Shown in pieces: positions 4,857 to 12,535 of a stretch of DNA of 64,000 nucleotides. Each line of letters begins with the position of its first letter. Position 1 is the first letter of the stretch. Source of the stretch: Polaromonas hydrogenivorans (GTDB taxonomy: Bacteria; Pseudomonadota; Gammaproteobacteria; Burkholderiales; Burkholderiaceae_C); contig NZ_CP157678.1 of assembly GCF_040105105.1 (NCBI RefSeq), positions 62,001 to 126,000 on the forward strand, given 5' to 3'. A program made the translations under genes and the position numbers. Below the pieces are notes generated by a model, which ran no database searches, was not told the DNA's origin, and saw nothing but the letters and a program-made list of their open reading frames with translations.

Positions 4857-5680
4857 GGTTCTGTCGCGTTGCTGGCTGATGAACGTGTTTGGGGCGGGAA
4901 CGCATGCCAGTTCCTCAGACGGGACGGATTTTTCCTGCCAACGCGTAAAACTGGTCGGCAAACGACCCTTCGTTGCCGCCCTTCATCATGAGCTGACCTT
5001 TTCGAATCATGTGCATCAACTCGATGCCAGCCAGGACATTTTTGGCTGATCGAAATGACTTGAAGTTCAGCATCGGCCTGGTGACGCGTTTGATGGCCCG
5101 ATGGTCCTGCTCCACGATGTTGTTGAGATACTTCACTTGCCGCACGATGATCAATGTCTCGCCTCTGCCATTGATCTCATCTATGGCCGCCTTGTTGGTG
5201 CCGCTCTTGTCCATCGTGACCTTCTCGGGAACACCGTTAGCCTTCATGGCTTTGTCAAAGAAGCGCAGGGCTGCGGCCTTGTCGCGCCTAGCCGTCAACA
5301 GGAAGTCGACCGTCTTGCCTTCCTTGTCCACGGCCCGGTAAAGGTATTTCCAGACGCCTTTGACCTTGATATAGGTTTCGTCCATGCGCCAGCTGCCACC
5401 CACCGGGCGCTTGTGTTTGCGAAAGACTTTTTCAAGCAATGGAAGAAACCGGATCGCCCAGCGGTTGATCGAAGAATGGTCGACAAACACGCCTCTTTCC
5501 TGCATCATTTCCTCCAGGTGGCGATAGCTCAACGGATACGCTGCATACCAGCGAATGCACACCAGAATGACGTCGATTGGGAAGCGCATTCCTTTGGTCA
5601 CCAGCATCTCCTTCAAACCTTTTCAGTCAAAGTGCTCAGCATAGACGAGCAAGCTGCTTGACCGTCAACGCGACAAAACC
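4857..5680 (-). mobile_element. IS6-family insertion sequence, copy A
   Basis: 824-bp element bounded by inverted repeats: GGTTCTGTCGCGTTG at 4857-4871 and its complement at 5666-5680, 14 of 15 matching. It carries one leftward IS26-like transposase gene. The 8 bases outside each end (GAACTGCG and TCCGGACC) are not duplicates, so the ends were not created by one simple insertion; recombination between copies or adjacent deletion is likely. A second copy, about 90% identical in transposase protein and in the same orientation, lies at 58169-58993. Confidence 0.92.
4915..5616 (-). CDS. IS6-family DDE transposase (copy A)
   Basis: 233-residue IS26-like transposase. The N-terminal helical DNA-binding region is followed by the DDE catalytic core: D in WRMDETYIKV, D in TMDKSG, and E in NNIVEQDHRA. 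The C-terminal NFKSFRSAKNVLAGIELMHMIRKGQ segment is typical of the family. It reads across the IS6 element at 4857-5680. Complete by length and motifs, so possibly active. In this family transposition is replicative and can fuse or delete neighbouring DNA, which suits the truncated genes on both sides. Confidence 0.93.
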   Translation of the reverse strand: MKEMLVTKGMRFPIDVILVCIRWYAAYPLSYRHLEEMMQERGVFVDHSSINRWAIRFLPLLEKVFRKHKRPVGGSWRMDETYIKVKGVWKYLYRAVDKEGKTVDFLLTARRDKAAALRFFDKAMKANGVPEKVTMDKSGTNKAAIDEINGRGETLIIVRQVKYLNNIVEQDHRAIKRVTRPMLNFKSFRSAKNVLAGIELMHMIRKGQLMMKGGNEGSFADQFYALAGKIRPV

Positions 5681-5941
5681 TCCGGACCGTTTTATTGACG
5701 AAACCTCATGCCTAATCGTGTTTTGTGAGTGACTGCAAAAGACTGACTGGCGTCGTACACGACTGACAGCTTACCGGTTGCCCAGTTCGACTCTGGTCAG
5801 AAACCGTATGAGGCATTCGGCAAGTGCCCATTGCGGGAGAAGAAGTTGGCAATGTCATTGCTGCTGCTAAGCGACGGAAAGCACCACAGGCGACTTCTGA
5901 GCTATATTTTGCTAGTTGGAACATTTACATGATTGGCAGTC

Positions 5942-8689
5942 ATGGAAGCAAGTGATACCCTGCTCTCCGCCGCAATACTGAGGGCATTTCTCAAATGCCC
6001 GACGAAAGCTCGGTTTTTGGCGCTTGGCAAAAGCCCGCAAGAAACCTACTTTTCGGATGTTGAGGCGGGAATCTCCTCAACGTACAAGTCGAGGGCTTGG
6101 CGGATGCTGCACGACAGAGGAGAGTTGGTAGCACCCGCGACTTTCGAGCAGATCGCCGACGGCGACGGATCCGCGACGCGTTGGTTCGACTGCGACACGG
6201 CCGTCTGCGATCTTGCCCTTTCGCAGCGCGGATTGGCAGAGCCCCGTGCGCAGAAATCTGCTTCGGGCGGCCGTGTCGTTCCGGTCCTCTTTTCGCCCTG
6301 GGAGAAGCCGGTACTTTCGGACAGCCTGCTCGTTTCTTTCGGCGCACGCTCTTTGTCGCAGGCGACTCGGACCCAGGTAGAGACCGGCATTTTGGTCTAC
6401 GGGGACAATCTTCGGCGCAAAACCATCCGGATTTCCGATCACGCTGCGCAGCTCAACCGCGTTTTCCGCGAGATAGGCTCCCTGCTCCCTGGCGGCCGGG
6501 ATCCGCCGCTCGTCCTGAACGCGCATTGCTCGGTGTGCGACTTCTGGTCGAAGTGCCGCGGTGTCGCTATCGAACAAGACGATTTGAGCCTCCTGTCCGG
6601 GATGACTGTCAAGGATCGGAGCAGGGCTCTCGCCAAAGGCATCCTGACGATTTCGCAGCTCTCCTACGGTTATCGTCCAAGGCGGCGAAAACGCACTAAG
6701 CCGGACGCTGAGCGAGCAGCCCGATCGAATGATGCTGCGCATACCCGCCCGCCCGCAAAGCATGACAACAAACTCAAGGCGCTGGCGATAAAAAGTGGAC
6801 GCATCCACGTCGTTGGGGCGCCCGCTATCAAATTGGAAGGGGTTCCGACCTTTATCGACGTCGAGGGCATGCCTGACAGGGACTCCTATTACCTTGTCGG
6901 GCTGCGTTTCGAATTCGTTGGAGGGCCGGCCGAGCACGCTTTCTGGGCCGACGGGCCAGAAGACGAGCAAGGCATGTGGGAGGACTGCCTGCGGACGCTC
7001 AAATCGATTGGAAACGCGCAACTCGTCCATTACGGTGCTTACGAGACGCGTTTTCTCAGGACCATGAAAAAGCGGTACAGCTCGGAGCCCGATGAGGCCG
7101 AATTCGTGGATCGTCTGATTGGATCGTCCATCAATCTCGTCGCATGTATTTACGGGAGCGTCTATTTCCCGACGTATTCAAATAGCCTCAAGGAGGTCGC
7201 CCGCCACCTCGGATACGACTGGGCCTGGCCGCACGCCTCCGGAGCCGCGTCTGTTTTGATGCGTAAGACATGGGAGCTCTCCGCAGTGAGCGACGTTAAG
7301 CCCCTGCTTTTGGCATATAACATGGACGACTGCCGGGCCGCCGCCGTGGTGGCAGACGCGCTGACGCGCATCTGCGCTGGAGGCCCATCTGCGCCCGATT
7401 CGGTCAACGTCGGATCGCTAGAAGTTGGATTCCAGCGGACGTTTGGTAAGTTTGACTCAGCACTACCCGAATTCTCCAAGATCAATGACGCAGCCTACTG
7501 GGACTACCAGCGGTCAAAGGTCTTTGTGCGTACAGATAAGAGCGTGCGGCGGACAGTCCGAAAATCAGAACGCCGCCGGAATATTTCAGGGGTCGAAAAG
7601 GAAATCACGATCGACGATACGCCGGCAAATTGCCCCAAATGCTCCTCGACAAAACTTTGGAAGTATCCTCCGAGAAGATCGAACATCGTCTACGACCTGA
7701 AGTTCTCACGTAAGGGGGTCAAACGCTGGGCGGTGAAATACCGCTATGGTCAATACAAGTGCAGCGAATGCCACGCTGAAATGACCTTTTATAAGAGGGA
7801 ATTGATGTACGGTCCGAGTCTGCGTGCCTTCTTGGTCTATCTCTTGATCGAACTGCTACTCTCTAACCGAAAGGCGGCCGAGCACGCATCCCTACTGTTC
7901 GATCTACGTCTGGCCAAGAGCGCGGTGGGTCAAATTAAATCAGAGATGGCCGAGAAATACACACCGACCTACCAGCACATCCTGAAACAAATCGCTGGGG
8001 GAAACCTGATCCATGCTGACGAGACCAAGGGGGTCGTCTTGGGCGGAGGTCATTACGTGTGGGTGTTCGCGAACATGACGACGGTCGCATACGTCTATGC
8101 GGAGTCGAGGGAATCGGCCATCCTAGAAAACCTATTGGACGGGTTCAAAGGAGTGCTTGTCTCCGACTTTTACGCTGCATACGACTCGGTACCCTGCCCC
8201 CAACAGAAATGCCTTATTCACCTGATGCGCGACATCAACGAAGATCTGAATAGAAATCCGTTCAACGAGGAACTCAAAGCCATCGCCGGGCGCTTCGGCG
8301 CGCTGCTCCGCGAAATCGTCGAAACGGTCGATCGGTATGGATTAAAAGCCCGGCACTTGGGTAAGCACCGTAGATCGGCGGAAGGATTCATCGAACACGT
8401 CGCTGGGATGAATTGCACGACTGAGGTCGGGCTGGCGCTCAAAAAACGCATCGGAAGGAACAGTGACAAACTATTCACGTTCCTATCGTATGACGGTGTG
8501 CCGTGGAACAACAACAACGCAGAGCATGCCGTCCGAGCATTTACACGCCTGCGGAATGTCATCAACACGAGTTCCCCGAAAGGGACCCGCGATTACGCCA
8601 CGCTGCTTAGCATCCAACAAACTCTGCGCTATCGAGGACACGCATTTTTGGAATTCATGAGATCGGGCGAGATGAAAATCCCAGAATAA
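5942..8689 (+). CDS. TM0106-type RecB-like nuclease fused to IS66-like DDE transposase
   Basis: A single open frame of 915 residues with two unrelated halves. Residues 1-480 resemble TM0106-family proteins: a RecB/Cas4-like N-terminal domain with a cysteine cluster (C196, C199, C205), then an RNase H-like exonuclease domain with D306-x-E308 and the YNMDDCRAA motif (D462, D463). Residues 560-610 hold a zinc ribbon (C564, C567, C607, C610). Residues 640-905 are an IS66-like DDE transposase: D693 (HADETKG), D742 (SDFYAAYD), E861 (WNNNNAEHAV). The ATG at 5942 is chosen; a TTG 9 bases earlier is possible. It lies just right of IS6 copy A. I found no convincing terminal inverted repeats, so the element boundaries are undefined. 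Function of the fusion is unknown. Confidence 0.8.
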   Translation: MEASDTLLSAAILRAFLKCPTKARFLALGKSPQETYFSDVEAGISSTYKSRAWRMLHDRGELVAPATFEQIADGDGSATRWFDCDTAVCDLALSQRGLAEPRAQKSASGGRVVPVLFSPWEKPVLSDSLLVSFGARSLSQATRTQVETGILVYGDNLRRKTIRISDHAAQLNRVFREIGSLLPGGRDPPLVLNAHCSVCDFWSKCRGVAIEQDDLSLLSGMTVKDRSRALAKGILTISQLSYGYRPRRRKRTKPDAERAARSNDAAHTRPPAKHDNKLKALAIKSGRIHVVGAPAIKLEGVPTFIDVEGMPDRDSYYLVGLRFEFVGGPAEHAFWADGPEDEQGMWEDCLRTLKSIGNAQLVHYGAYETRFLRTMKKRYSSEPDEAEFVDRLIGSSINLVACIYGSVYFPTYSNSLKEVARHLGYDWAWPHASGAASVLMRKTWELSAVSDVKPLLLAYNMDDCRAAAVVADALTRICAGGPSAPDSVNVGSLEVGFQRTFGKFDSALPEFSKINDAAYWDYQRSKVFVRTDKSVRRTVRKSERRRNISGVEKEITIDDTPANCPKCSSTKLWKYPPRRSNIVYDLKFSRKGVKRWAVKYRYGQYKCSECHAEMTFYKRELMYGPSLRAFLVYLLIELLLSNRKAAEHASLLFDLRLAKSAVGQIKSEMAEKYTPTYQHILKQIAGGNLIHADETKGVVLGGGHYVWVFANMTTVAYVYAESRESAILENLLDGFKGVLVSDFYAAYDSVPCPQQKCLIHLMRDINEDLNRNPFNEELKAIAGRFGALLREIVETVDRYGLKARHLGKHRRSAEGFIEHVAGMNCTTEVGLALKKRIGRNSDKLFTFLSYDGVPWNNNNAEHAVRAFTRLRNVINTSSPKGTRDYATLLSIQQTLRYRGHAFLEFMRSGEMKIPE

Positions 8690-8941
8690 TTTTCAATTTT
8701 GGGAGGTGCGAGCCCACCTGAACCGGACACCCGATGACAGAGTTATTCTGCATGCCGAATGTCGGGTTGCGGTCACTCGCAGGTGTCCCTTTAATCAAGA
8801 TAGTCGGCACAATGTTGGCGGACGACCTACTGATACCAATGTCGGGTATCGGGCGAGAAATTTTAGTTTCTGTAGACCCGCTTACGCTGCATTGCAGCCA
8901 GTGGTTCAATGCTGCAAACACTCCAGCTTGACATAACACCA

Positions 8942-9015
8942 GTCGTCATAGTCCCCCGCCCGGATCACCCGCCCGTCCAGGTCCGTGATGCCGCGCAGGC
9001 CCACACCCCGGGCCC
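8942..9015 (-). pseudogene. duplicated 3' end of the metallophosphoesterase gene
   Basis: This 74-bp stretch is nearly the same as 11843-11916, the last codons of the intact phosphoesterase at 11828-12535, with only a few mismatches, and runs in the same direction. The rest of the gene copy is absent. An IS630 element starts 36 bp further on. It shows that the segment now carrying hipBA and the phosphoesterase was flanked by, or recombined with, another copy of the same locus. Confidence 0.75.
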
Positions 9016-9088
9016 TGCTGGGGCGGCGACGGTATGTCGAGCAGGTTCTAGTGTCGCGTCATGAGTAAATTGACGCAGACAATGAGGG

Positions 9089-9562
9089 ATGGAACATTAC
9101 AAAGTCACCTTGTCGGAGCAGGAAAGAGCCGAGTTGCAAGCCATCGCAGGCAAAGGCACGCACGCGGCGTCCAAGGTTATCAATGCCTTGATACTGCTCA
9201 ACTGCGACCAGTCCGGGGAGCGCACCGAGCGGCCCCGCACCTGCGACATCGCGGCCATGCTGTGCGTGAGCGAGCGCAAGGTCGATCGGATCAAGAAGAA
9301 GTTTGTCCTCGAAGGCCTGGACCTGACCCTGAACCGCCAACCCTCGCAGTGCGAGTACGACCTGAAGATCGATGGCCGCCTGGAAGCACAGTTGCTGGCC
9401 CTGAGCTGCTCGGCGCCGCCCGAAGGCCAGGCCCGCTGGTCGCTGCGGCTGCTGGCCGATCGGTTGGTCGAGCTCGAATTGGTGGACAGCGTGTCTCATG
9501 AGACGGTACGGCGGGCGCTCAAAAAAACGAGCTCAAGCCCTGGAGGAAAGTCGGCTGGGTGA
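9089..9562 (+). CDS. IS630 transposase, upstream frame (DNA-binding part)
   Basis: 157-codon frame giving the N-terminal helix-turn-helix half of an IS630-type transposase (TCDIAAMLCVSERKVDRIKKKF is the recognition region). The frame leaves the family sequence at an A7 run (9521-9527), after which a -1 shift restores NELKPWRKVGWVI, the normal continuation into the catalytic half. This is either programmed -1 slippage, known in several IS families, or a one-base loss. The frame overlaps the downstream one by four bases. Confidence 0.85.
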   Translation: MEHYKVTLSEQERAELQAIAGKGTHAASKVINALILLNCDQSGERTERPRTCDIAAMLCVSERKVDRIKKKFVLEGLDLTLNRQPSQCEYDLKIDGRLEAQLLALSCSAPPEGQARWSLRLLADRLVELELVDSVSHETVRRALKKTSSSPGGKSAG

Positions 9563-10221
9563 TTGCCCCGCAGGCCAGCGCCGCATTCGTGGCCGCCATG
9601 GAAAAGGTGCTCGACATCTACAGCCGGCCCTACGATGCGAAGCACCCCGTGGTGTGCATGGATGAGACGCCCCGGCAGTTGATTCGCGAGACCCGCGAGC
9701 CCATTGCGGCGGCGCCCGGCCGGCCCGAGCGCCATGACTACGAATACGAACGCTGCGGCGTGTGCAACGTGTTCATGGCCAGCGAGCCGCTGGCCGGGCG
9801 GCGCCTGACCAAAGTCACAGAGCGCCGAACCAAACTGGACTGGGCCGTGTTTCTGCAGGACATCGCGGCCAGCTACCTTGACGCCGAGCGCATCACCCTG
9901 GTGATGGACAACCTGAACACGCACACGCCGGGCTCACTGTATGAGGCGTTTGCCCCCGAGCAGGCCAAGGCGCTGTGGGACCGCTTCGAGTTTGTCTACA
10001 CACCCAAGCATGGCAGCTGGCTGAACATGGCCGAGATCGAGATCAACGTCATGGTGGGCCAGTGCCTGGACCGGCGCATCGACAGCATCGAGACGGTGCG
10101 AAGCGAAGTCGCTGCCTGGCAGAGCCGCCGCGACAATCTTCAGGCCAAAGTCAACTGGCAATTCACGACCAAGGATGCCCGCGTCAAGCTCAAACGGCTT
10201 TACCCGACAACTACCTCATGA
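9559..10221 (+). CDS. IS630 transposase, downstream frame (DDE catalytic part)
   Basis: 220-codon frame with the IS630/Tc1-like catalytic core: D in VVCMDETPRQL, D in LVMDNLNTH, and E in HGSWLNMAEIEINVM (DDE). It is probably expressed as a fusion with the upstream frame through the A7 run at 9521-9527; the listed ATG at 9559 may not be a real start. It ends 8 bases before the right inverted repeat finishes. Likely functional if slippage works. Confidence 0.87.
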   Translation: MIAPQASAAFVAAMEKVLDIYSRPYDAKHPVVCMDETPRQLIRETREPIAAAPGRPERHDYEYERCGVCNVFMASEPLAGRRLTKVTERRTKLDWAVFLQDIAASYLDAERITLVMDNLNTHTPGSLYEAFAPEQAKALWDRFEFVYTPKHGSWLNMAEIEINVMVGQCLDRRIDSIETVRSEVAAWQSRRDNLQAKVNWQFTTKDARVKLKRLYPTTTS

Positions 10222-10326
10222 CGCGACACTAGTTTGAACCCCAAGGGACCCGCCTCAACGACCACCCCTGATCCTGGCCGACAAGCAGGCGGCGCGGGTG
10301 CGCAATACACTTTAATCATCAAAAAT

Positions 10327-10376
10327 ATGTATCGTATGCCATACTTTATTTATGACAAGTATTAAAATCGATACAT
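10327..10376 (+). promoter_or_regulatory. hipBA promoter/operator with inverted repeat
   Basis: AT-rich stretch between IS630 A and hipB. ATGTATCG at 10327-10334 and CGATACAT at 10369-10376 form a perfect 8-bp inverted repeat, the right arm overlapping the hipB start codon. HipB-type antitoxins repress their own operon by binding such palindromes, so this is a candidate operator. A -10-like TATTAAAAT lies between the arms. Inferred from position and symmetry only. Confidence 0.5.
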
Positions 10377-10623
10377 GAATCAATCATTTCATCTGCAAAA
10401 GCTCGGTCAAGCCTTCAAAGCCATGCGCACGAACCGGGGTTTGACGCAAGAGGAATTGGCGCATCGGGCCGGGGTGACGCGGCTCAAGGTGATTGCCATC
10501 GAAGCAGGTCGCAGTTCGGTCGCCATCGAGAGTCACGCCAGGCTGGCCAGTGCCCTGGGCGCTGAATTGACCCTGCTGCCCCGCACCCGGCCCACTCTGG
10601 ATGAACTGAAGGATTTTCAATGA
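10375..10623 (+). CDS. hipB: HipB-like antitoxin, XRE-family HTH
   Basis: 82-residue Xre-type DNA-binding protein (LGQAFKAMRTNRGLTQEELAHRAGVTRLKVIAIEAGR is split across recognition helices at about residues 9-45). The stop overlaps the hipA start (ATGA at 10620-10623), the classic type II toxin-antitoxin arrangement. It should bind and neutralise HipA and repress the operon through the palindrome at its start codon. An unspecialised XRE regulator is the only other reading, made unlikely by the partner gene. Confidence 0.85.
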   Translation: MNQSFHLQKLGQAFKAMRTNRGLTQEELAHRAGVTRLKVIAIEAGRSSVAIESHARLASALGAELTLLPRTRPTLDELKDFQ

Positions 10624-11812
10624 GCGCCCAGCAGCTGCGTGTGACCACGCCCCAGGGGGATGCCGGTGAGTTAAGCCACGAGCAGAGCCGGTATTTGTTT
10701 GGCTACCAAACGGCCAATGCGGCAGCAGCCGTCAGCCTGACCATGCCAGTGCGCAAGGCGCAATACGGCTATGCCACTTTGCATCCCCTCTTCCAGATGA
10801 ATTTGCCCGAGGGGTTTTTGCTTGAAGAGCTGCAAAACCGGCTGGCCAAAATCGTCAATCTGGAGCCCATGATGCTGCTGGCCCTGTCCGGCGGGCAGTC
10901 GCCCATTGGCCGCGTTGCAGTGCAGTCAGATTTTGTGAACCCCTTGGCCCGCCAACAGGGTCGTGGCGAGCGTTTGAACGAGATCCTGGCCTGGGATGGC
11001 ACTGAAAATCTATTCGCCGAACTGGTGGACAAGTACATTTACCGCACCGGCATCTCTGGCGTGCAGCCCAAGGTGTTGGTGCCGCAGGCGATGGAGCCCA
11101 TGCAATCCAAAGCCACGGTGCTCACGCCGGATCTGATCGTGAAAAGTGGCCGCGAGGAATACCCCGGTCTGGCGGCCAACGAGTTTGTCTGCATGAGTAT
11201 CGCCAAGGAGTCAGGCCTGGTGGTGCCAGAGTTCCATTTGTCAAAAAACAAAGAGCTGTTCGTCATGCAGCGATTCGACCGCACGCCTGAGGGCACGCCC
11301 ATCGGGTTTGAAGACATGGCGGTGCTGGCAGGATTTTCCTCGCGCGAGAAATACAAGACCAGCTACACCCATGTGGCAAAACTGGTCGAGGCTTTTGCCT
11401 CCGGCCCCCATGTCACGCGCTCTTTGCAGGCGCTGTTCGACATGGTAGCGCTGTCGTGCGTGGTGGGCAATGGCGATGCGCATTTGAAGAATTTTGGCAT
11501 GCTCTACACCGACCCCACCACCAGCGACTGCCGACTGGCGCCGGCGTTTGATGTGGTCAACACCACGGCCTACATTCCAGAGGATGTATTGGCGCTGGAC
11601 TTGTGCGGTCAAAAGTCATTTTTCTCAGCCCGGCAAGGGCTATTTTTGCCAAGGTCTGCCAGGTGGCTGATCCCCATGAGCGGTTGCAGCGCTTGATACT
11701 GACCGCAGAGTTTGTCATTGAGCGTGAAGCCGAGGTGGCGCAGTCCATACCGCATGTGGTGGCGGCGATCGCGCACTGCACGAACATGCTCAAAGAAGTT
11801 TTCTTTGACTAA
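10620..11812 (+). pseudogene. hipA: HipA-like serine/threonine kinase toxin, frameshifted near the 3' end
   Basis: HipA family kinase. Seen: N-terminal HipA domain (YLFGYQ through LPEGFLLEEL), the SGVQPKVLVP loop, the F-D-R/GFEDMAVL segment and the catalytic NGDAHLKNFGML. The frame runs 10620-11696, but after SFFSARQGL it loses family sequence. The normal continuation IFAKVCQVADPHERLQRL is in another frame and ends at 11812. The break lies near 11625-11645. Either one base was lost, removing about the last 55 residues, or it is a sequencing error. If real, the kinase may be inactive while the antitoxin persists. Confidence 0.82.
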
Positions 11813-11827
11813 ATGTAGAGACTTGCA

Positions 11828-12535
11828 TTACCGCCTGGCCTTGTCGTCATAGTCACCCGCCCGGATCACCCGCCCGTCCAGGTCCGTGATGCCGCGAAAG
11901 CCCACGCCCCGGGCCTGCACGCCCAGCGCGTGCCAGGTGCCTGAATAGTCCAGGCTGTCATGGTGGTGGCCGTGGAAGGATTTGTCCACCCCCAAGCTCC
12001 TGGCCAACGCATCAATCGCCGCGAAGCCGTGGGGATGGCTGCTCGGCGCCTCGTGGGTGACCAGCACCTCGGCGCGCTCTTTGGCCAGGCGCTCGACGTC
12101 GGCGGGAAAGATGGTGCTGCGGTGCTTGAGCGCTAAGCCGCCTCGCCAGCGGTTGCCCTTGCCGCCGCGTGCCACGAAGTCTTCCCGGGAGGTGAAGTGC
12201 GCGGGACCGGGCGGGGACCAGACGTTGCCGCGGAACACGCCGCCCAGGCCGGCGATGCGCACGCCGGCCACCGTCTCCACGCGCCCATGCAGGTTGCGCC
12301 CGGCCAGGCTGGAGCCGAACAGGTGGTCGTGGTCGGCTTCACTGTCGGTGTCGTGGTTGCCGTGGATCAGCCACACCTCGGTCCGGCCCAGAATCTCGGC
12401 CAGCTCGACTTCCAACGGGCGCGGGGCCTGCAGGTCACCCAGCAGCACGATGGCGTCGGGCTGGTGGTCATGGACCGCCTGGATGATGTGCGCGAAGCTG
12501 CCGTGCATGTCGCCGCAAAAGAAGATGCTGGCCAT
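11828..12535 (-). CDS. metallophosphoesterase (calcineurin-like)
   Basis: 235-residue protein of the calcineurin-like phosphoesterase fold, which uses two metal ions to hydrolyse phosphomono- or diesters. Metal-binding motifs in order: GDMHG near residue 8 (D-x-H), LLGDLQ, HGNHD, and the C-terminal HGHHHDS. It points toward hipBA, with only about 15 bp between the two stops. The last 74 bp are repeated at 8942-9015. Substrate unknown; phosphatases of this size act on proteins, nucleotides or cyclic nucleotides. Confidence 0.85.
   Translation of the reverse strand: MASIFFCGDMHGSFAHIIQAVHDHQPDAIVLLGDLQAPRPLEVELAEILGRTEVWLIHGNHDTDSEADHDHLFGSSLAGRNLHGRVETVAGVRIAGLGGVFRGNVWSPPGPAHFTSREDFVARGGKGNRWRGGLALKHRSTIFPADVERLAKERAEVLVTHEAPSSHPHGFAAIDALARSLGVDKSFHGHHHDSLDYSGTWHALGVQARGVGFRGITDLDGRVIRAGDYDDKARR

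Follow-up and report, generated by a model that had tools for sequence, protein, structure and literature searches.

Can a transposase that keeps a full active site, and that is joined in one chain to nuclease domains, turn into cargo rather than a jumper? This question is raised by a gene at 5942..8689 (+ strand) of the window, a 64,000-nucleotide stretch of Polaromonas hydrogenivorans DNA (contig NZ_CP157678.1, positions 62,001 to 126,000), where an earlier note had described one uninterrupted frame with a TM0106-like nuclease half and an IS66-like transposase half. The fusion is real: a conserved chimera whose two active sites are intact and whose Cas4-like lobe is disarmed. The reading preferred here, given an even chance of being correct, is an ancient DNA-processing protein of several parts that other mobile systems carry as cargo and that has neither recognisable ends of its own nor an adjoining TnpB.

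The frame is open throughout from an ATG at 5942 and encodes 915 amino acids (aa), an in-frame TTG at 5933 being also possible (918 aa); in protein alignment, the close homologues P0008, P0014 and P0022 begin at the equivalent ATG. Pfam scanning places RNase_H_2 at residues 307-477 (E 3.1e-15) and DDE_Tnp_IS66 at residues 625-880 (E 5.7e-29), and in the NCBIfam scan the protein scores 154.4 bits against TIGR03491, the TM0106 family, above the cut-off of 97.45. Against the IS66 transposase model NF033517 it scores 170 bits, below the cut-off of 180, which was passed by three (L034, L066 and L007) and failed by two (L084 and P0040) of the five relatives scanned. Both halves described for the frame are thus borne out. 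Of 7,997 candidates scored in a very large protein collection, 2,186 are homologues at E <= 0.001, and the same-architecture proteins that the earlier note proposed to look for are plentiful, as both Pfam domains occur in 120/120 of the matches listed, or at least 120 database proteins; the names given to listed homologues, where there are any, are ‘IS66 family transposase’ or ‘predicted RecB family nuclease’, so that the named ones are mostly called after one half only. No publication on the fusion protein was found in literature searches (TM0106 with IS66, RecB/Cas4 with transposase, domesticated fusions, IS66 helpers, integrons with AbiEii), from which subscription journals were mostly excluded.

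Shorter and broken forms are also seen. Among the matches listed are 20 proteins of 683–699 aa (P0246, P0256, P0268 and similar), and seven of the eight aligned have their start at an internal methionine around residue 221 and lack the Cas4-like lobe; they may be a genuine short version of the protein or reflect the way the genes were called. On G1262:C604 (L173, L176), a fusion relative lies in two frames with the break near residue 460, as a split gene or a frameshift.

The N-terminal lobe (residues 1-212; 5942..6577, + strand) has a Cas4/RecB fold and carries C19, C196, C199 and C205, a cysteine set of iron-sulfur type. Conservation was counted over an alignment of the window protein with 39 relatives (40 sequences). 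L012, whose reference sequence has stops, was left out of it, and L008, which has the same sequence as L007, was left out of most counts. C196, C199 and C205 are invariant (40/40), and C19 is present in all 36 sequences covering that position. The RecB/Cas4-type domain described previously therefore stands in its fold and cysteines, though not as an active RecB nuclease, the catalytic D/E-x-K being missing in 40/40. This site comes after an invariant proline, and residue 116 is L in 18 sequences, R in 18, I in three and S in one, with no K at 118 in any of the 40. In six TM0106-like relatives without a transposase, from other genomes, D/E-x-K is found in five and D-I-R in the sixth. The lobe has accordingly lost its catalytic residues and kept its iron-sulfur set, and is probably a DNA-binding part rather than a nuclease. 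It shares both fold and cysteine set with the Cas4 of Cas4-Cas1-Cas2 complexes (7mi4, 8d3l); unlike that Cas4, it lacks the catalytic residues and is joined to a DDE enzyme instead of partnering Cas1. The Cas4 model TIGR00372 was not reported for the window protein, and its best score among the relatives scanned was 39.9 bits (L084; cut-off 65).

The lobe is followed by a basic linker (residues 213-298; 6578..6835, + strand), helical in its secondary structure and holding a conserved DDLSLL...KGIFTVTQLSY...RPRRR, which may be helix-hairpin-helix-like. The third part is a DnaQ-type 3'-5' exonuclease domain (residues 299-490; 6836..7411, + strand) in which D306, E308, Y459 and D463 are invariant (40/40) and position 368 is E in 38 sequences and D in two. 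The RNase H-like DEDD exonuclease domain named in the earlier note is thereby upheld and can be specified as DEDDy, since D-x-E, an acidic exo II residue and Y-x3-D (Y459-x3-D463) are all present. This sets it apart from the repair exonuclease MrfB (YprB), which is of the DEDDh type (PMC11194089); the fusion protein has Tyr459 at that position.

The remainder of the chain consists of a four-cysteine zinc ribbon (residues 564-610; 7631..7771, + strand; C564, C567, C607 and C610 in 40/40) and an IS66-type DDE domain (residues 625-880; 7814..8581, + strand) whose triad D693, D742 and E861 is invariant in 40/40; the triad, cysteine cluster and zinc ribbon are conserved as had been stated. Zinc ribbon and DDE domain are common to the fusion protein and to IS66 TnpC (NF033517/PF03050). 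In comparison with TnpC, however, the fusion has ~545 extra N-terminal residues, no adjoining TnpB and no paired IS66-like ends.

The predicted folds resemble Cas4, a family B/MrfB exonuclease and the ISCth4 transposase, in agreement with the domain assignments that a structure prediction had been proposed to check; in the whole-model structural alignment, the rows are dominated by residues 299-490, so that the absence of other families there is uninformative. The Cas4-like lobe, helical linker and RNase_H_2 exonuclease occur in identical order in the TM0106 family (TIGR03491). The fusion differs from that family in the missing nuclease motif of its Cas4-like lobe and in its C-terminal partner, a transposase in place of a helicase: Pfam scanning of three TM0106-like relatives found SF1-type helicase domains (AAA_11/AAA_12) in L149 and L150, and none in L148. 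The view that TM0106 nucleases are normally free-standing is not supported, L149 and L150 being fused to helicase domains, and the transposase can be interpreted as occupying the position held by the helicase in a sister architecture. Three DNA-end activities that are usually spread over several proteins are in this way joined in one chain.

All parts of the protein appear to be in use. The ratio of nonsynonymous to synonymous change (dN/dS) is 0.05–0.33 in 16/16 computable comparisons (of 18; six close pairs, three parts), some values being rough because of very small dS, and the low ratio in every part indicates purifying selection. For the catalytically dead Cas4-like lobe it is 0.13–0.30 in five pairs; a nuclease lobe without its chemistry thus retains its iron-sulfur cysteines under selection. 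Synonymous divergence is strongly uneven along the gene in L079/L082 (0.39, 0.03 and 0.01) and in L052/L059, which suggests domain exchange by recombination.

The distribution of the gene is wide and sparse. A scan of species genomes gave 153 relatives, of which 80 loci were kept, from Pseudomonadota, Acidobacteriota, Verrucomicrobiota, Planctomycetota, Nitrospirota, Bacteroidota, Cyanobacteriota and others. The phyla are intermingled on the 79-row tree, which has 35 phylum changes against a least possible 11 and a shuffled mean of 49.2; wrongly binned contigs and paralogues may be the source of some changes, and frequent transfer of the fusion gene is strongly suggested. It was present in 3/397 genomes of the order of G127 (E <= 1e-60) and, with other fusion members as query, in 3/387 of the phylum of G107 and 11/399 of the class of G103 (E <= 1e-80, some matches partial); each count takes in the centre genome, picked for having the gene, and six of the 11 in the G103 class were previously known. 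For most genomes these surveys scored two candidates, so they have no say on copy number. Plasmid records matching the DNA around the window gene number eight, seven from Polaromonas and one from Rhodoferax; in the plasmid collection, a single record out of the 426 that matched spans 80% or more of the query. Viral contigs gave no match to six peptide patterns.

Some relatives lie in units resembling integron gene cassettes, with R'/R'' ends and attC-like hairpins. In the Bacteroidota copies, AbiEi/DUF6088-like and AbiEii-like genes follow immediately downstream and form a unit with the fusion gene. In L073 and L082 the unit begins with GTTATGCC or GTTACCTGC by an attC-like hairpin and closes with the complement, followed by another hairpin. 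The left end is also present in L068 and L084, the L084 right end being imperfect and the L068 unit cut off; the ends of L070 match over 11 nt, its contig stopping before the right hairpin, and those of L074 match over 9 nt. In the L074 array, attC-like sites stand at 807, 1878, 2724, ~3757 and 6924, and the fusion gene is one ~3.1 kb cassette; the genome has two integron integrases (481.7 and 371.8 bits; cut-off 265). Matches of 9 nt between R' and R'' were found at 5/71 loci, compared to a mean of 0.8 and a maximum of three in 30 shuffles; of these five, the matches of L019, L064 and L068 are not counted, and the loci with matching R'/R'' ends are L070, L073, L074 and L082. The L074 array (L074 1-9957), with five or more attC-like sites, comes from a bin labelled Deltaproteobacteria, and two adjoining ORFs (open reading frames) scanned have no Pfam match. 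The window copy differs from a gene cassette in having no detected attC site and no R'/R'' ends, and ~3–4.5 kb is long for a cassette.

In the window itself the gene stands between two short sequences, an L-box on its left (5685..5759, + strand) and an R-box on its right (8885..8947, + strand). Both are also present elsewhere in this genome: each box has three genome matches at E <= 0.001, one per contig C3, C4 and C5; order and strand are alike on the three contigs, the spacing is about 11.9, 3.2 and 2.7 kb, respectively, and different genes lie between. The L-box further recurs on pPNAP05/pPNAP06 and the R-box on pPNAP06 with other cargo between; on pPNAP06 (L136) the two boxes are separated by 1.3 kb and enclose an annotated DNA helicase gene. 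The box pair, with cargo of 1.3 to 11.9 kb, is apparently a cargo region of Polaromonas-type plasmids; a literature search on Polaromonas plasmids found nothing on it. Two observations concern the boxes' margins: an IS6-like element at 4857-5680, with 14-bp ends (13/14 match), abuts the L-box, and a 73-bp piece at 11843-11915, from the end of a phosphoesterase-like gene (11828-12535), is repeated at 8942-9014 beside the R-box with 94.5% identity.

In the mechanism proposed for such a protein, the Cas4-like lobe and the basic helical linker would bind a DNA end or fork, the DEDDy exonuclease, whose active site is evident in the sequence, would trim the 3' strand, and the zinc ribbon and IS66/ISCth4-like DDE domain, with its complete triad, would cut or rejoin strands. 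The protein would do its work with no TnpB next to it and no recognisable ends, and would be carried between genomes in integron cassettes (several relatives) or in the two-box cargo region (window genome). Its likeliest job may be the processing of foreign or broken DNA, for example an attack on competing mobile elements or phages, and a role against other mobile DNA is the preferred guess.

The main rival, which is possible though on the unlikely side, is an IS66-derived, autonomous transposon made up of this one gene, with unusual or very short ends and a nuclease half that processes donor or target DNA. It would account for the complete triad in all 40 sequences, for the patchy, phylum-crossing distribution, and for the genomes that hold several diverged copies and decayed pieces of the fusion gene; in addition, the window gene with ~180 bp before it and ~200 bp after it fills the space between the boxes. 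The ends that such an element needs were nevertheless not found. IS66 terminal repeats begin GTAAGCG, and IS66 insertion makes an 8-bp target duplication. GTAAGCG upstream is paired with CGCTTAC downstream in none of 85 records (+ strand matches, window and duplicates included; many flanks cut by contig ends), and a de novo inverted-repeat search around the gene returned locus-specific or low-complexity pairs only, with no recurring terminal repeat, in keeping with the earlier note, which had found none. In the all-against-all comparison of locus DNA, similarity in most pairs listed is confined to the gene or ends close by, the exceptions among those pairs being Bacteroidota pairs (gene with AbiEi/AbiEii-like genes), L052/L059, L062/L063, L066/L075 and the identical L007/L008. 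At some loci the ends belong to integrons.

One candidate for a common end was considered and rejected. The Microvirga tunisiensis loci L006 (4222-4554) and L009 (3851-4183) share a 325-bp sequence 3' of their two fusion genes; it is part of another repeat, with 39 genome matches and often at contig ends, and its high repetition explains why contigs stop there.

Copy number and partner genes argue in the same direction against an autonomous transposon. Eleven within-genome pairs (seven genomes) are 38–71% identical, none of them near-identical, and both copies are nearer to a copy elsewhere in nine, one copy in one and neither in one (L011/L034). No equal-scoring fusion matches occur within a genome in the 50 genomes with all candidates scored; for contrast, an ordinary IS66 has seven equal copies in G037. 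The absence of a TnpB partner, claimed for the window gene, extends to its relatives: TnpB_IS66 (PF05717) has 47 matches in 18 of 50 genomes, 0/47 adjoin a full fusion gene, and TnpB lies on the same contig as a full fusion only in G000:C4 (the window genome) and G141:C1, at least 19.7 kb away, which is the distance of the nearest one in the window genome. A single contig in L017 (5680-11347) has a tandem of two diverged fusion genes, of which the second is incomplete where the locus ends; the two share no edge. The suggestion that the protein mobilises itself has, with no ends, diverged within-genome copies and several relatives in integron-cassette-like units, no direct support. The alternative suggestion, a fixed gene of transposase ancestry, comes nearest among those of the earlier note, with the difference that the gene is much moved about, seemingly as cargo.

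Several points weigh against carriage as cargo. A complete DDE triad would be expected of a working transposase, and a CGCTTAC lies 199 bp 3' of the window gene, without a left partner; it sits at the R-box, and the same stretch is found on a Rhodoferax plasmid at a place without the fusion gene. Most relatives come from fragmented assemblies, which collapse identical copies, so that amplification could be hidden and the lack of equal copies is no proof. The cassette evidence covers ~5-6 of the 80 loci. An integron integrase above cut-off was found in one of eight genomes tested, that of L074, and in none of the other seven, which leaves the Bacteroidota units without a shown integrase. An automatic attC detector did no better than controls (8/80 loci vs 23/207 control intervals; in a second run, 11 sites in seven loci vs nine in eight shuffled), and the integron claim therefore rests on site position and matching ends.

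A more doubtful prospect is that the protein is a DDE-based, single-chain analogue of CRISPR adaptation, spread as integron and plasmid cargo, in which the Cas4-like lobe would read an end, the DnaQ-type exonuclease would trim it and the DDE domain, standing in for Cas1, would insert the DNA into a target. This lead comes only from folds that resemble parts of CRISPR adaptation; function is not shown by fold similarity, and the Cas4-like lobe is catalytically dead. If this were true, it would represent a second route to programmed DNA capture.

That the frame is a local accident fusing two neighbouring genes is so improbable that it can be dismissed: the full fusion is present once in the window genome (three further matches are partial, of the IS66-like part only) and in no other of 101 genomes, the window's and 100 relatives (partial matches in eight others), and one relative has a split frame (G1262:C604), but local rearrangement is ruled out by the presence of both halves in all 120 homologues listed and in loci of many phyla, and searches with each half alone list many fusions, five aligned N-half-only matches all reaching or passing the junction as fusion fragments would.

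Returning to the preferred reading of a carried DNA-processing protein, the neighbouring genes were compared through mechanically called ORFs, near ones lying within 700 bp (150 of 152 scanned) and far ones beyond 2.5 kb (150 of 216), with two near and 66 far ORFs dropped ahead of the family scans. The commonest Pfam families in the near set (25 of 120 listed) are DUF6088, AbiEii, Gp49, HTH_3 and PIN (five each) and HTH_37 (four), with DUF5615 and UPF0175 at two each. In the far set, PIN occurs twice, and the others just named are absent from the 25 families listed of 147. Toxin-antitoxin families are hence commoner near the fusion genes than far from them; the AbiE pairs near fusion genes are one lineage. 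PADLOC families at E <= 1e-10 number 96 in the near set and 16 in the far set, and the best 25 of the 96 are AbiE, methylase-type and one HTH model. The protein itself matches no PADLOC model of its own kind, only Cas4 models weakly over the N lobe (best E 3.7e-6). Surroundings with toxin-antitoxin genes are consistent with accessory DNA of integrons and plasmids; a wider defence association of the neighbourhood is possible.

Two further features lie to the right of the window gene, both recognised by eye from translations. An IS630-like element at 9048-10232 has inverted ends and a transposase in two frames (9089-9562 and 9559-10221). A HipB/HipA-like gene pair at 10375-11696 is probably a toxin-antitoxin module.

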